Program-made: the position numbers and the translations under genes
Shown here: positions 22,699 to 28,385 of the stretch, piece after piece
How the letters are laid out: the number at the start of each line of letters is the position of its first letter
Numbering within the stretch: the stretch's first letter is position 1
Notes under the pieces: generated by a model
Databases searched by the model: none
What the model saw: only the letters and a program-made list of their open reading frames with translations
What the model was told of the DNA's origin: nothing
DNA from: a virus
Strand: one strand, 5' to 3'
DNA: 28,385 bases
Virus record (IMG/VR): IMGVR_UViG_3300037065_000049
Location: 1-28,385 of that record

Positions 22699-22740
22699 GG
22701 CCCCCGCCCCGTTCATCGTCCGGGGCGGGGGCCCTCTTTT
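22699..22740 (+). terminator. Intrinsic terminator ending the late region
   Basis: A perfect 12-bp G+C stem (arms 22699-22710 and 22722-22733) with an 11-base loop is followed by CTCTTTTGTT. It is the strongest factor-independent terminator in the window and separates the late genes from the next promoter by only two bases. Confidence 0.93.
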
Positions 22741-22741
22741 G

Positions 22742-22770
22742 TTGACGCCCAGGCTTTCAGGGGGTATACT
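22742..22770 (+). promoter_or_regulatory. Near-consensus sigma70 promoter
   Basis: TTGACG (-35, 22742-22747), exactly 17 bases, then TATACT (-10, 22765-22770). The predicted start of transcription, about seven bases downstream, coincides with the ATG at 22777, which implies a leaderless message. It lies immediately after the intrinsic terminator. Confidence 0.85.
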
Positions 22771-22776
22771 TTCCGT

Positions 22777-23241
22777 ATGACAAGAATGGGTCGGCCACTG
22801 CTCCCCAAGAACGAACGCCGGGATCGGATATTCATGCTCCGATTGAACCGACGGGAATTTGCCCATTTGAAGGAACTCGCTGGCGACCTGTCTTTTTCTG
22901 ATTTTATTCGGCGCCGACTGCTCTTCGAGGAGACCGGCCACACACAACACGACCGCGCCGGGCTTTCATCTTCCAGGACATATCAAACCTGGGTGAGCAT
23001 GATCAAACGCTGTGAAGACCCGAAGGTCCACGGGTACCAACATTACGGTGGTCGCGGGATCAAGGTCTGCCCCGAATGGTCCGCCAGCTTCCTGACTTTT
23101 TATCACGACATGGGAGATCGCCCAGAAGGCCTCTCCATCGACCGCATCGATGTAAACGGGAACTACTGCCCCGAGAATTGCCGTTGGGCCACCCCGGCCC
23201 AACAAACCGCCAACCGCCGTCCCAAAACCCCCACGAAATAA
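22777..23241 (+). CDS. HNH-type homing endonuclease-like protein with ribbon-helix-helix-like N terminus
   Basis: A 154-residue protein that appears to be its own transcription unit, with a promoter so close that the transcript should begin at or next to the ATG; no ribosome site is visible. A second ATG at 22789 is equally possible. Residues ~18-49 (IFMLRLNRREFAHLKELAG, then SFSDFIRRRLL) look like a ribbon-helix-helix DNA-binding segment. Residues ~68-148 have the known HNH/AP2-like phage pattern: TYQTWVSMIKRCEDP, YGGRGIKVCPEW, a GDRPEGLSIDRID turn (D122, D125) and NYCPENCRWAT. This group occurs as free-standing homing endonucleases that copy themselves between phage genomes. Base composition is less G+C rich than its neighbours, supporting horizontal arrival. 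A regulatory DNA-binding role is the alternative. Confidence 0.8.
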   Translation: MTRMGRPLLPKNERRDRIFMLRLNRREFAHLKELAGDLSFSDFIRRRLLFEETGHTQHDRAGLSSSRTYQTWVSMIKRCEDPKVHGYQHYGGRGIKVCPEWSASFLTFYHDMGDRPEGLSIDRIDVNGNYCPENCRWATPAQQTANRRPKTPTK

Positions 23242-23246
23242 ACCCC

Positions 23247-23275
23247 TTGCAATTCCCGACTTTCTGATATACAAT
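23247..23275 (+). promoter_or_regulatory. Sigma70-like promoter for the small-gene cassette
   Basis: TTGCAA (-35, 23247-23252), exactly 17 bases, TACAAT (-10, 23270-23275). It begins six bases after the stop of the HNH gene and is followed by a leader of about 30 bases with an ideal AAGGAGG site (23299-23305) before ATG 23312. Confidence 0.8.
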
Positions 23276-23311
23276 AAGTCAGAGGGAAGGAGAAGAACAA
23301 GGAGGACGACG

Positions 23312-23542
23312 ATGACGAAGATCGAATGCGCCACTTGCCACAAGCACCTTGGAGGACCCGCCGACGCGCCTGCGGCCCAGATCAGCCACGGCATCTGCAT
23401 CGACTGCCTGAAGAAGCAGAGCCCGGGCGCCTACTTCTTCGGCCGCCGCCGGGCCCTGCAGGAGCGCCTGGCCGCCTTTGACCGCGCCCCTGGAGCGATG
23501 GACCTCAATGGGTTCTTCTTCGCACACGGGCGGGCCGCATGA
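23312..23542 (+). CDS. Small zinc-binding-like protein, first gene of the coupled cassette
   Basis: A 76-residue protein directly downstream of a promoter and a perfect ribosome site. The first 35 residues contain CATC and CIDC about 20 residues apart, a typical four-cysteine zinc knuckle, with GGPADAP between. The C-terminal half is helical (RRRALQERLAAFDR) and ends FFFAHGRAA. The stop overlaps the next start as ATGA. Phage early genes often encode such small zinc proteins that bind host machinery; that role is inference. Confidence 0.75.
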   Translation: MTKIECATCHKHLGGPADAPAAQISHGICIDCLKKQSPGAYFFGRRRALQERLAAFDRAPGAMDLNGFFFAHGRAA

Positions 23543-23736
23543 AGACCTTCACGCCTTCCCGGCTGGTCATGGCCACCGACCAGGTCCGGCGGGACTTCCC
23601 CAACGCCCTGATGGCGGACGGGTTCAAGGCCACGGTCGAGGCCGCCGAGAGCGACGGCCGGAGCATCGAGGTCACCTTCATGGACGCTATCTGGGGCCGG
23701 ACGGTCCTCGAGATGAAAGCGACGGTGCTCGGGTGA
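23539..23736 (+). CDS. Small hypothetical protein, second gene of the coupled cassette
   Basis: A 65-residue protein whose ATG overlaps the previous stop by four bases. It has a helical N terminus (SRLVMATDQVRRDFPNALM) and a strand-rich end (RSIEVTFMDAIWGRTVLEM). No motif is recognised. The stop overlaps the next start as GTGA. Confidence 0.65.
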   Translation: MKTFTPSRLVMATDQVRRDFPNALMADGFKATVEAAESDGRSIEVTFMDAIWGRTVLEMKATVLG

Positions 23737-24176
23737 GCGCCCGCCGCGTCGTCGCCCTGGTCCTCGCCCTCACCCTCGCCGCCCGCCCGGCTTCCGCCGG
23801 CGTGCCCAAGTGGCTGGTCTGGGCCGCGCTCGGCGTCGCCGCCGGGGTGACGGCCTCCAACTACGCCACGAGCGCCCACCACCTGCGCGCCGAGGCCGAC
23901 GCACTCCGGTACACGGTCTCGACCGGGGACTTCGAGGGCATGGCGGCCCCGCGCGTCGTCTTCGCGGTTCCAGACCTGACCTACCTCCAGCCGATCCGGG
24001 ACCGGGTCATGGCCCAGGCAGCCAGCCTGGACAAGCGGGCGGATCGGCGGCAGCACGTCGCCACCGCCCTGGCCGTGGTGTCCATCGCTGCGGCCGGGAT
24101 GACGATCACCACCGGCGCCCACAGCTTCATGGTGCGGCGCACGGTCCGCTTCGGCGGGCAAGGAGGCGTCCGATGA
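23733..24176 (+). CDS. Membrane or exported protein, third gene of the coupled cassette
   Basis: A 147-residue protein read from GTG 23733 in a GTGA overlap. The N terminus is a signal-peptide-like segment (basic SARR, hydrophobic VVALVLALTLAA, then RPASAG). A second hydrophobic region follows at once (WLVWAALGVAAGVTA, about residues 28-42), and a third near the C terminus (VATALAVVSIAAAGMTITT, about residues 111-129), before a basic end. The middle is soluble and helical. Several hydrophobic segments suggest an inner membrane protein, as in superinfection-exclusion or membrane-modifying phage factors, but no family is recognised. Confidence 0.7.
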   Translation: MSARRVVALVLALTLAARPASAGVPKWLVWAALGVAAGVTASNYATSAHHLRAEADALRYTVSTGDFEGMAAPRVVFAVPDLTYLQPIRDRVMAQAASLDKRADRRQHVATALAVVSIAAAGMTITTGAHSFMVRRTVRFGGQGGVR

Positions 24177-24376
24177 ACGGTCCCGCGCTGGTCAAGGTGG
24201 AGTTCGAGAACGACGCCGTCCGGGAGCGGGCCGCGGGCCTGACCTCCTACACCCGCGACATCCTGCCGAGCGGGCGGTGCTGCTGGATCGTGCCGCTCGA
24301 GAACCTCTCCAAGATCGCCCAGGAGCTGGCGGGCGAGGGCTTCACGGTGAAGGGTCACCTGGAGGTGTACGGATGA
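24173..24376 (+). CDS. Small hypothetical protein, fourth gene of the coupled cassette
   Basis: A 67-residue protein with an AAGGAGG site inside the preceding gene and an ATGA overlap. Strand VKVEFENDAVRERAAGL, then a short SGRCCWIVPLENL and a helix IAQELAGEGF followed by VKGHLEVY suggest a small alpha/beta fold. No family is recognised. The stop overlaps the next start as ATGA. Confidence 0.66.
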   Translation: MNGPALVKVEFENDAVRERAAGLTSYTRDILPSGRCCWIVPLENLSKIAQELAGEGFTVKGHLEVYG

Positions 24377-24600
24377 ACTTCACGACCGTGGACCGGATCC
24401 GTGGGCTGGTCGAACACATCAAGGCCGACGCCCGAAAATTCGGCGTTCTTTCAACCGGCGAGAAGATCGCTGTGGCTCTGGTGATGAACCGGACGGACTG
24501 GCTCAATGAGGCGGGCTGGCCTTCGGTCCTCGAGGCGGTGGAACGCCTTGGGCCCGAATGGCTGGCGGCAGCGCTGCAGGTCCAGAGGGATCTCGAGTGA
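24373..24600 (+). CDS. Small hypothetical protein, fifth gene of the coupled cassette
   Basis: A 75-residue, predominantly helical protein (DRIRGLVEHIKADARKFG, then TGEKIAVALVMNRTDWLNEA and PSVLEAVERLGPEWLAAAL). Its layout, a helix followed by an amphipathic C terminus, is common in small phage proteins that act on host partners, but no motif is diagnostic. It overlaps its neighbours as ATGA and GTGA. Confidence 0.66.
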   Translation: MNFTTVDRIRGLVEHIKADARKFGVLSTGEKIAVALVMNRTDWLNEAGWPSVLEAVERLGPEWLAAALQVQRDLE

Positions 24601-24767
24601 CCGCGCGCGAGGCGGTCCGCCGGCGCGAACTGAACGACGACCACAACGCCATGATGACAGAGGCCACCGCCATCTACAACGCTGTCCCCTGGTCCCTCGG
24701 CAAGCAGGACCTGGCCCGCAACCGGGCGGAGATCGCCGAGGCCCTGGTCGGCGAGTTCGGGTCGTGA
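24597..24767 (+). CDS. Small hypothetical protein, sixth gene of the coupled cassette
   Basis: A 56-residue protein started at GTG in a GTGA overlap. It is highly charged and helical (AREAVRRRELNDDHNAMMTE, then ARNRAEIAEALVGEFG). No recognised family. It may be a small DNA- or protein-binding peptide. The stop overlaps the next start as GTGA. Confidence 0.6.
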   Translation: MTAREAVRRRELNDDHNAMMTEATAIYNAVPWSLGKQDLARNRAEIAEALVGEFGS

Positions 24768-24952
24768 GCCTCGCGCGCGACTTCTACGCCCGGTGGCTGG
24801 CCGGGGACCGGACCGGCGTCGTCGACGACTTGGCCTACCTCGACCGTCGGCCCGCCCTCCTCGCGGCGGTGGAGCTGGCGGGCATCCTCGACGACCGGGA
24901 CCAGGCCCAACTCCTGCGCCGCCTCCGCGTCAAGCTCGCCGACTTCGGCTGA
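24764..24952 (+). CDS. Small hypothetical protein, seventh and last gene of the coupled cassette
   Basis: A 62-residue acidic, helical protein started at GTG in a GTGA overlap (ARDFYARWLAGDRTGVVDDL, then LLAAVELAGILDDRDQAQLL). No family is recognised. About 45 bases later the next promoter begins. No convincing intrinsic terminator lies between, although a T-rich stretch with a short CCGGA/TCCGG pair is present. Confidence 0.6.
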   Translation: MSLARDFYARWLAGDRTGVVDDLAYLDRRPALLAAVELAGILDDRDQAQLLRRLRVKLADFG

Positions 24953-24996: not shown

Positions 24997-25025
24997 TTGA
25001 CGCGGGGGGCCTCGTTTGGTACATT
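24997..25025 (+). promoter_or_regulatory. Sigma70-like promoter ahead of the leader ORF
   Basis: TTGACG (-35, 24997-25002), exactly 17 bases, TACATT (-10, 25020-25025). It is the third promoter of the same form in 2.3 kb. Predicted transcription starts near 25032, about 42 bases before the small ORF. Confidence 0.75.
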
Positions 25026-25045: not shown

Positions 25046-25119
25046 CCCCGCGCCCGCGGGCAGGAGATGAGCGATGATCCATTCCACGACCCCGCGCCTT
25101 TTCACCGAGCCCGCGGGGT
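25046..25119 (+). promoter_or_regulatory. Leader RNA with alternative GC hairpins (attenuator candidate)
   Basis: CCCCGCG occurs at 25046-25052 and again, as ACCCCGCG, at 25089-25096. A single complementary arm CGCGGGGT lies at 25112-25119, so it can pair with either upstream copy. The first copy can also fold on itself with CGGG at 25057-25060, close to the ribosome site AGGAG (25062-25066). The 25089-25119 hairpin is followed by TTTCCTCTTCCT. Mutually exclusive pairings of this kind are expected in attenuators. Confidence 0.4.
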
Positions 25120-25202: not shown

Positions 25203-25248
25203 GCCGGGGTGCCTACCTTTGGGGGGAGGCATCCCGGCTTCTTTATTT
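25203..25248 (+). terminator. Intrinsic terminator after the leader ORF
   Basis: Arms 25203-25214 and 25227-25238 form 12 pairs with one G-T wobble, a 12-base loop and a TTCTTTATTT tail. The stem begins at the base following the stop codon of the leader ORF, so a terminating ribosome would cover its left arm. Confidence 0.88.
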
Positions 25249-25284
25249 GACGATGCCGTAAAAATGCAGTGAGGGAGGAAGACG

Positions 25285-26334
25285 ATGGCGTTCCAAAAAG
25301 CTGACAAGAGGCAGGGCCGTCTGCGGATCGCGCTGACGGCGCCGTCGGGGGGCGGCAAGACGTTCTCCGGGCTATTGATCGCCCAGGGGATCATCGAGGG
25401 CATGAAGAATATGGGCCTGGACACCGGCAAAGGGATCGCGGTGATCGACACGGAGAACGGGTCGGCGCTCGACTACGCGGACCGCTTCGAGTTCGACCAC
25501 CTGAAGATCGACCCGCCCTACACCACGCCCAAGTACGTCACCGCCATGCAGGAGGCCTACGACGGCGGCTACGCGGTCCTGTTCGTGGACTCGCTGTCCC
25601 ACGCCTGGGCCGGGGAGGGCGGACTGCTCCAGAAGAAGGAGGCGCTCGACACCCGGGGCGGCAACAGCTACACCAACTGGGCCGGCATCACCAAGGAGCA
25701 CGAGCAGCTGAAGGCCATCATCCTGTCGAACAAGATCCACCTGATCTGCGCGATGCGGTCCAAGCAGGACTACGTCATCGAGCAGAACGACAAGGGCAAG
25801 AGCGCGCCCCGGAAGGTCGGCCTGGCCCCGGTGCAGCGGGAGGGGATGGAATACGAGTTCACCGTCGTCTTCGACCTGGGCATGGACCACAGCGCCCAAG
25901 TCTCCAAGGACCGCACGGCCATGTTCGACGGCGCCATCTTCAAGCCGACCAAGGACACCGGGAAGTTGCTCCTCGACTGGCGCATGAGCGGCAAGCCCGA
26001 GCAGGTCGAGGCGCCGCCCGCTGCCGCACCGGTCGCCGCCGCGCCGCCGCCCGCCAAGGCCCCGGCCCCGCCCACCAGGCTGCAGGGCGTCTTCAACGTC
26101 TCCCTCATCACGCCCTACGACAAGCCGAACAACGCCGGGAAGGCCTGGAAGATCATGACCTACGACACCGAGGGCCCCACCGAGATGAAGACCGACGTGC
26201 CGGAGTTCGTGGCCGCGGCCGACGTCGCGCTGAAGGCGGGCCTGACCGTCAACATCACCTACGACGCCTACGCGAACGGCTGCGTCATCATCGCCCTGGC
26301 GACGGTCCCGCGCCCGGCGGCGGTGCCGGCATGA
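25285..26334 (+). CDS. Sak4-like RecA-fold ATPase (single-strand annealing/recombination)
   Basis: A 349-residue ATPase started at an ATG preceded by GGGAGGAAG. Walker A is APSGGGKT (residues 19-26), IDTENGSA follows (54-61), and Walker B is VLFVDSLSH (D102). This is the AAA_24/Sak4-type phage ATPase used in homologous recombination together with an SSB. A ~30-residue Pro/Ala linker (about 237-262) leads to a C-terminal domain with alternating strands (GVFNVSLITPYDK, then WKIMTYDTEG and LTVNITYDAYANGCVIIALA), which is OB-like and may bind single-stranded DNA. No stand-alone SSB is seen in the window. The stop overlaps the next start as ATGA. Confidence 0.88.
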   Translation: MAFQKADKRQGRLRIALTAPSGGGKTFSGLLIAQGIIEGMKNMGLDTGKGIAVIDTENGSALDYADRFEFDHLKIDPPYTTPKYVTAMQEAYDGGYAVLFVDSLSHAWAGEGGLLQKKEALDTRGGNSYTNWAGITKEHEQLKAIILSNKIHLICAMRSKQDYVIEQNDKGKSAPRKVGLAPVQREGMEYEFTVVFDLGMDHSAQVSKDRTAMFDGAIFKPTKDTGKLLLDWRMSGKPEQVEAPPAAAPVAAAPPPAKAPAPPTRLQGVFNVSLITPYDKPNNAGKAWKIMTYDTEGPTEMKTDVPEFVAAADVALKAGLTVNITYDAYANGCVIIALATVPRPAAVPA

Positions 26335-26855: not shown

Positions 26856-28385
26856 ATGCCCCAGACCGACACCACGACCGACGTCCGCGTGTCCCTGCAC
26901 GGCGCCGTCCGGGCGGTAGCCACCGCCTGTGACGGCGCCGTCCAGCAGGACGGCCAGGGGTTCAACTCCTACGACCGCGACTTCGGCCACGCCCTGGCCG
27001 TCCAGGACCCCGCCACGTGGTCTCCCCGCAAGGCCCGCGCCGCCTGGAATATGCTCCGCAAGTATAAGGGGCAGCTGCAGCGCGCCGGGATCGACTTCGC
27101 GGCCATCCCCGAGCCCCCCGAGGCCGCGCCTTACGCCCCGCCCGGCCCGAGCCAGGCCGAGGTCGAAGCGGTCCACCGCGCCGCATTCCCGCCGGTCCGC
27201 CGGGTGATCGTCCGGGACGACGACAAGTTCGGCATGGTGTTCCGCGACGCGGACTCGGCCGTCTGGCACCGCATCAAGGCCGACGTGAAGGCCATCCCGG
27301 GCGCCATGTTCGAGCCCGCCACCACGGCCTGGACCGTGCCTCGGACGCCCTTCGTCCTGGAGAAGCTCCTCCCCTTTCTGAAGACGCACGGCTTCGTCGC
27401 CACGCCCGAGATCCACGCGGAGGTCCACAAGCTCCAGGCCAAGGTCGAGGAGACCAAGGCCAACGTCGAGGCGTCCCGCGCGACCGATGCCGAGATCGAC
27501 GTGCCCGGCCTGGGCGGCACGCTCCGCCCGTTCCAGCGCGCCGGGGTCGCCTACGCCGTGAAGAACGAGCGCGTCCTGATCGGGGACGAGATGGGCCTCG
27601 GCAAGACCGTCCAGGCCCTGGCCGCCTGCCAAGCCATGGGCGCGTTCCCCGTCGTCGTGGTCTGCCCCGCGTCCCTCAAGGTGAACTGGTACCGCGAGGC
27701 GTGCAAGTGGCTCCCCGGCAAGCGCGTCACGATCTGGGACAGCCGGGGCGGCTGGCCGGCGGACGTGGTCGTCGTGAACTACGACGTCCTCGGCAAGCTG
27801 GTGGACCGGCTCAAGGCGCTGGCGCCGGCGGCCGTGGTCTTCGACGAGTGCCATTACCTCAAGACCCGGAAGGCCAAGCGCACCGAGGCGGCCAAGGACC
27901 TGGCCACCGTCGCCAAGGTCCGCCTGGCGCTGTCCGGGACGCCCATCTTAAACCGGCCGTCCGAGCTGGTGACGCAGCTGGAGCTCCTCGGCCGCATCGA
28001 AGAGTTCGGCGGCTACTGGCAGTTCGTCCGTCGGTACTGCCAGGCCTTCCGGGGGGACCACGGCGTGGACACCGCGGGCGCCGCCAACCTCGAGGAGCTG
28101 AACCACCGGCTGCGGTCGACGTGCTTCATCCGGCGGAACAAGGCGGACGTCCTCACCGAGCTGCCGCCCAAGCAACGGTCCGTCGTGCCGCTGGCCATCG
28201 ACAACCGGCCGGAGTACGACCGGGCGGAGGAGGACCTCATCCAGTGGATCCGGGAGCAGGCCCTCAAGAACGACGAGCTGCTGCTCCTGTCCCAGGCGGA
28301 CCGGGAGGCCCAAGCCGACGCGGCCGCCAACCGGGCGCGCGCGGCCGAGCAGCTGGTGCGGATCGAGGCCCTCAAGCGCCTGGCC
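26856..28385 (+). CDS. SNF2/DEAD-type helicase with HARP-like N-terminal region, 3' end missing
   Basis: The frame is open from ATG 26856 to the right edge (510 codons visible), so the C-terminal RecA lobe is outside the window. The start follows the Gp157 stop by three bases. The N-terminal ~190 residues include KFGMVFRDADSAVWHRIKAD and AMFEPATTAWTVP, similar to the region that precedes SMARCAL1-type helicases. The helicase core begins LRPFQRAGVAYAV; Walker A is GDEMGLGKT (residues 243-251), motif Ia is VVVCPASLKVNWYRE, the DECH box is at residues 330-333, and motif III reads LALSGTPILNRPSEL. It is a DNA translocase that probably anneals or remodels forked DNA in phage replication or repair, not a replicative hexameric helicase. 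Confidence 0.92.
   Translation, partial: MPQTDTTTDVRVSLHGAVRAVATACDGAVQQDGQGFNSYDRDFGHALAVQDPATWSPRKARAAWNMLRKYKGQLQRAGIDFAAIPEPPEAAPYAPPGPSQAEVEAVHRAAFPPVRRVIVRDDDKFGMVFRDADSAVWHRIKADVKAIPGAMFEPATTAWTVPRTPFVLEKLLPFLKTHGFVATPEIHAEVHKLQAKVEETKANVEASRATDAEIDVPGLGGTLRPFQRAGVAYAVKNERVLIGDEMGLGKTVQALAACQAMGAFPVVVVCPASLKVNWYREACKWLPGKRVTIWDSRGGWPADVVVVNYDVLGKLVDRLKALAPAAVVFDECHYLKTRKAKRTEAAKDLATVAKVRLALSGTPILNRPSELVTQLELLGRIEEFGGYWQFVRRYCQAFRGDHGVDTAGAANLEELNHRLRSTCFIRRNKADVLTELPPKQRSVVPLAIDNRPEYDRAEEDLIQWIREQALKNDELLLLSQADREAQADAAANRARAAEQLVRIEALKRLA

Follow-up and report, generated by a model that had tools for sequence, protein, structure and literature searches.

Seven Small Phage Genes Joined by Four-Base Overlaps: Probably an Ordinary Accessory Operon

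Introduction

Ahead of the recombination/replication module of a phage lie seven small genes, each overlapping the next by exactly four bases. Does such a run mark the subunits of one complex made in a fixed ratio, a set of factors directed against the host, or simply the way in which this phage packs its genes? An earlier note on this DNA had favored the first two readings. We asked how unusual the run is, whether its genes are real, and what their relatives keep company with.

The Phage Genome

The window is the whole 28,385-base virus record IMGVR_UViG_3300037065_000049, and all positions given are those of the window. The same phage is found on PMLI01000351.1, a 37,377-base contig of the Acidimicrobiaceae MAG 'fen_671'. 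Window positions 1–24743 are identical to the contig and 24768–28385 are 99.97% identical. The two are circularly permuted relative to each other, and the contig adds 9 kb absent from the 28.4-kb window. Since it carries the same phage, the complete phage genome is put at ~37.4 kb by comparison of the two assemblies. The ends of the contig fall within g6, where 24 bases differ; that difference looks like an assembly end. Membership in the Acidimicrobiaceae bin is weak evidence of the host. A search of 298 genomes of the order to which the MAG belongs gave the phage itself as the only match to the cassette. The terminase has PBSX-type relatives, with at most 38% identity among named phages.

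Layout and Coding Status of the Cassette

The features of the region are collected in Table 1.

Table 1. Features of the cassette and its surroundings, in window coordinates.
Feature	Coordinates	Strand	Description
Sigma70-like promoter of the cassette	23247..23275	+	TTGCAA-17-TACAAT
g1	23312..23542	+	76 aa; CxxC...SHGICxxC, zinc-ribbon-like; ribosome site -11.4 kcal/mol
g2	23539..23736	+	65 aa; PHROG matches below threshold
g3	23733..24176	+	147 aa; by hydropathy, a signal-like segment at the N-terminus (ASA-G) and a transmembrane-like one at residues 109-127
g4	24173..24376	+	67 aa; predicted ferredoxin-like fold; internal ribosome site -11.4 kcal/mol
g5	24373..24600	+	75 aa; phrog_22116, STGE-motif all-helical family; ribosome site -13.1 kcal/mol, the strongest internal one
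g6	24597..24767	+	56 aa; coding by codon usage
g7	24764..24952	+	62 aa; no ribosome site (-3.5 kcal/mol); coding by codon usage
Second promoter-like site, before the Sak4-like gene	24997..25025	+	TTGACG-17-TACATT
Hairpin of ~14 pairs, then a T-rich tail	25204..25250	+	Probable terminator or attenuator at the end of the cassette transcript
AAA_24 / phrog_1366 (Sak4-like) gene	25285..26334	+	First gene of the recombination/replication module

The seven open reading frames of the earlier note are all present at the lengths it gave. Each of the six junctions is an ATGA or GTGA overlap, and the coordinates verify exactly four bases in all six. A gene caller run without an overlap bonus recovered g1–g7 with the junctions unchanged. 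The phage genome is 67% GC, and long chance open frames are plentiful on both strands. Coding status was scored from codon usage trained on the phage genome minus the cassette, with the own frame of each ORF compared to the five others. The score in the own frame is positive for all seven (3.9 to 42.8) and exceeds that of the five alternative frames, and GC3 ranges from 0.79 to 0.97. All seven are genuine coding genes. The lowest scores are those of g5 (+3.9) and g1 (+7.5). Since g5 is backed by homology, g1 is the least certain gene and has the weakest independent support of the seven.

Promoters and Position

The sigma70-like promoter proposed for the cassette is found where it was placed. 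Promoter-like sites precede the HNH gene (22742), the cassette (23247) and the Sak4-like gene (24997), three where 0.4 would be expected in the 6.6-kb region. Across the full 37.4-kb genome, five such sites occur on this strand, and these three are among them. A 13-pair perfect terminator at 22699–22733 closes the preceding lysis region. The cassette is placed between the HNH gene and a Sak4-like/Gp157/SNF2/ParB/RusA module, so that the densely packed set of small genes described in the earlier note, with its promoter at the head, directly precedes recombination and replication functions. The downstream genes encode, besides the AAA_24/phrog_1366 (Sak4-like) protein, Sipho_Gp157, an SNF2 helicase, ParB, RusA, an IstB/DnaC-like ATPase and a C-5 methylase. 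From the promoter-like sites, the terminator and the terminator-like hairpin on either side, and these downstream genes, we presume that the cassette opens the early region.

The arrangement is reminiscent of the early operons of siphoviruses. The early polycistronic units of SPP1 (PMC6316719) likewise present a promoter-led block of small, uncharacterized genes beside replication/recombination genes. The likeness to the SPP1 units is one of layout.

The Run of Overlaps

The -4 junction is the most frequent tight junction in this phage, accounting for 18 of 40 overall and 12 of 34 when the cassette is left out. Among related and comparison loci, it is again the commonest class, with 189 of 646 tight junctions (29%), rising to 35% for pairs of small genes. 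It is also by far the most frequent intergenic distance across 1,695 prokaryotes (PMC10666635). Because the -4 junction is already the commonest in this phage, in the comparison loci and in cellular genomes, the run of six goes only mildly to the extreme within a normal packing habit, and the statistical surprise is small. Permuting the junctions of this genome gives a probability of 0.11 for a run of at least six, and simulation at -4 rates of 0.29–0.35 gives 0.015–0.042. The related and comparison loci contain three -4 runs of length four and one of five, the longest. The run of six thus lies in the tail of that set, which counts against treating the cassette as ordinary.

Ribosome Sites and Coupling

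Ribosome-site strength was taken as pairing with the 16S tail, for which the background median is -4.5 and the 5% tail is -9.0 kcal/mol. Strong sites precede g1, g4 and g5; those of g2 (-6.3), g3 (-7.6) and g6 (-6.3 kcal/mol) are moderate or weak, and g7 has none. The earlier note had seen a single ideal ribosome site, at the head of the cassette; the sites of g4 and g5 are as strong as that of g1. It had also read obligatory translational coupling and fixed stoichiometry from the overlaps. With site strengths ranging from -3.5 to -13.1 kcal/mol, a fixed ratio is not supported, and whether coupling is obligatory cannot be read from sequence. Some coupling by termination–reinitiation is likely, since most overlapping gene pairs that have been tested are coupled, often with the assistance of ribosome sites (PMC6728339). 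The cassette resembles the coupled pairs of that study and of PMC10666635 in its stop/start overlaps (ATGA or GTGA throughout), and differs in that strong ribosome sites also precede two of its downstream genes. Those internal sites fit both translation-dependent and independent starts (PMC6728339).

The g5 Family

Searches of all seven proteins against Pfam, NCBIfam, PADLOC and PHROGs were significant for g5 alone. The earlier note recognized none of the seven. That stands for the other six; g5 has a significant profile match to phrog_22116 (E = 9e-8, 33 bits), although the match spans only positions 18–54 of 74. The likeness includes an invariant core, S27 T28 G29 E30 A35 A55 R58, shared by 21 sequences of the family. 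No function is assigned to phrog_22116, so the name explains nothing of how g5 acts. The predicted structure of g5 is a compact six-helix bundle (pLDDT 92). Its fold has no match among solved structures in the PDB, and its profile found nothing significant among PDB sequences.

Relatives of g5 occur at 27 viral loci and on plasmids of Sinorhizobium, Mesorhizobium, Xanthomonas, Alicycliphilus and Variovorax. Across 396 genomes from the phylum of the MAG, the family appeared in the phage itself and in one weak match, which gives no pointer to the host. The neighbors are varied and include CHC2-type primase-like, ParA-like and YqaJ/RecT-like recombination genes and resolvases, with unannotated ones identified by eye. 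In other phages most are small uncharacterized genes or genes for replication or partition; some plasmid relatives lie near restriction, toxin–antitoxin or anti-phage-associated genes. At none of the 27 viral loci does a g5 relative have any of the other six cassette genes as a neighbor.

Depletion of nonsynonymous change, which the earlier note had taken as the mark of conservation as protein, was assessed for g5. In nucleotide comparisons of sufficiently diverged pairs, pN/pS is ~0.24–0.58; two very close pairs are uninformative, one of them having pN > pS on very few changes. These ratios indicate that g5 is under purifying selection. We regard g5 as the lead most worth study: a small helical family in phages and in plasmids of many proteobacteria, kept by selection and without a match in solved structures.

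The Other Six Proteins

The other six have no relative in any collection searched (viral contigs, phages, plasmids and the order of the MAG), by searches that detect close relatives only. Scans of viral contigs with g3, g2+g4, g1 and g6+g7 found no relatives, the joined queries g2+g4 and g6+g7 having half the sensitivity. With the seven proteins joined, tblastn against phages and plasmids gave g5 as the sole convincing match.

The "zinc knuckle" protein of the earlier note is g1. It does have two CxxC pairs (C6/C9 and C29/C32), but as read from the sequence they form the zinc-ribbon-like pattern CxxC-x19-CxxC instead. Matches of g1 to curated zinc-ribbon families are below threshold, and nothing was found for it in the PDB. 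Its SHGIC motif, taken as a lead, resembles those in zinc-ribbon tails of signaling proteins. The two PHROG matches of g2 are to phrog_7955 (E 0.011) and phrog_2416 (E 0.016). A search for it with both families in 48 virus records gave nothing, in a setting where the controls gave no signal either. The exported or membrane protein suggested earlier is g3, and the suggestion is supported: its N-terminus resembles a signal peptide, and a second hydrophobic segment follows. A relation of g3 to SLATT membrane effectors is not supported: SLATT_1 matched residues 88–130 only (E 0.011, 15.7 bits against the NCBIfam cut-off of 41). From its single sequence, g4 is predicted to be beta-alpha-beta-beta-alpha-beta (pLDDT 82), and Foldseek returned generic ferredoxin-like matches, none significant.

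Interpretation

On balance, the cassette is probably an ordinary accessory operon, probably an early one, in which seven small and independent genes are packed as is usual for this phage. This reading is supported by the seven coding ORFs, by the -4 junction being habitual here and in related loci, and by the unequal ribosome sites. It is also supported by the clustering of promoters at this place beside recombination/replication genes, and by the occurrence of g5 relatives in unrelated phages and plasmids without the other six. Early expression is judged probable from position. In such an operon, a single mRNA would run from near 23282 to the hairpin at 25204–25250. Ribosomes would load at g1 and reach the weak-site genes g2, g3, g6 and g7 by termination–reinitiation, and strong loading or re-loading at g4 and g5 would lead to unequal amounts of product. 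Most likely, the proteins would work independently of one another, on targets in the host or on DNA, as infection begins, with g1 as a zinc-ribbon protein, g3 as a membrane protein and g5 as a widespread helper of mobile elements. The genes would have been assembled by mosaic exchange and not as subunits of one machine.

That several members each inhibit a host defense or process, as the earlier note suggested, is a possibility drawn from position, and we consider it unlikely. The cassette's own promoter and its place ahead of the recombination module would suit such an island, as would the smallness and unrelatedness of its ORFan members and the company kept by some plasmid relatives of g5. 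Against this, no defense, Pfam or NCBIfam model matched above its cut-off, and the phage neighbors of g5 are mostly of other kinds. PADLOC, which covers defense and not anti-defense, had no match at E <= 1 for any of the seven. A narrower version, a lineage-specific take-over or anti-defense set in which g5 would be an early helper common to many mobile elements, seems to us quite unlikely.

For the products, or most of them, to be subunits of one complex whose ratio is fixed by obligatory coupling is very unlikely. Six consecutive -4 junctions invite the idea, and short overlaps are enriched among genes for heteromeric-complex subunits in cellular genomes (PMC10666635). However, -4 is the default in this phage whatever the function, the ribosome sites differ by ~10 kcal/mol, and g3 is membrane-like while the remaining products look soluble. 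Moreover, the sole member with relatives, g5, is found without the other six. Since those six have no relatives, some cassette products may yet form a lineage-specific complex. As a matter of calibration, small phage genes are normally packed with successive 4-nt overlaps, and a run alone demonstrates neither a complex nor a fixed stoichiometry. Going from the overlaps to a complex, or to anti-defense, has no support here. Finally, it is hardly credible that chance open frames in high-GC DNA account for some of the ORFs: the base composition and the six proteins without relatives would allow it, but the coding scores, the GC3 values and the selection on g5 speak against it.

Observations on Flanking Genes

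Within 22699–23241, the HNH endonuclease gene (ATG at 22777) has its own promoter at 22742–22770, behind the perfect terminator. The -10 box is 6 nt upstream of the ATG, so the mRNA is probably leaderless. The codon usage of this gene differs from that of the rest of the phage, and it looks like a recent mobile insertion.

The segment 24953–25284 is non-coding and strongly structured (z = -2.3). A promoter lies at its beginning, and a hairpin resembling a terminator is found ~35 nt upstream of the Sak4-like gene. The segment is a candidate for a small RNA of ~220 nt or an attenuated leader. Rfam gave no match above threshold for it, and a 42-codon ORF at 25074 was dismissed because it scores as non-coding.

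The SNF2 helicase (26856–28385) has an N-terminal W-VP...L...GF pattern that resembles HARP-type domains, and g4 has a short pattern similar to it. A relation of g4 to that part of the helicase was rejected, as BLASTP gave no match and Foldseek only generic ferredoxin-like ones. The ORF at 39–1361, read by eye, joins an N-terminal portion resembling ParB to a DNA methylase of the TSPPY type. A second ParB is encoded within or close to the 9 kb outside the window, as is a C-5 methylase.
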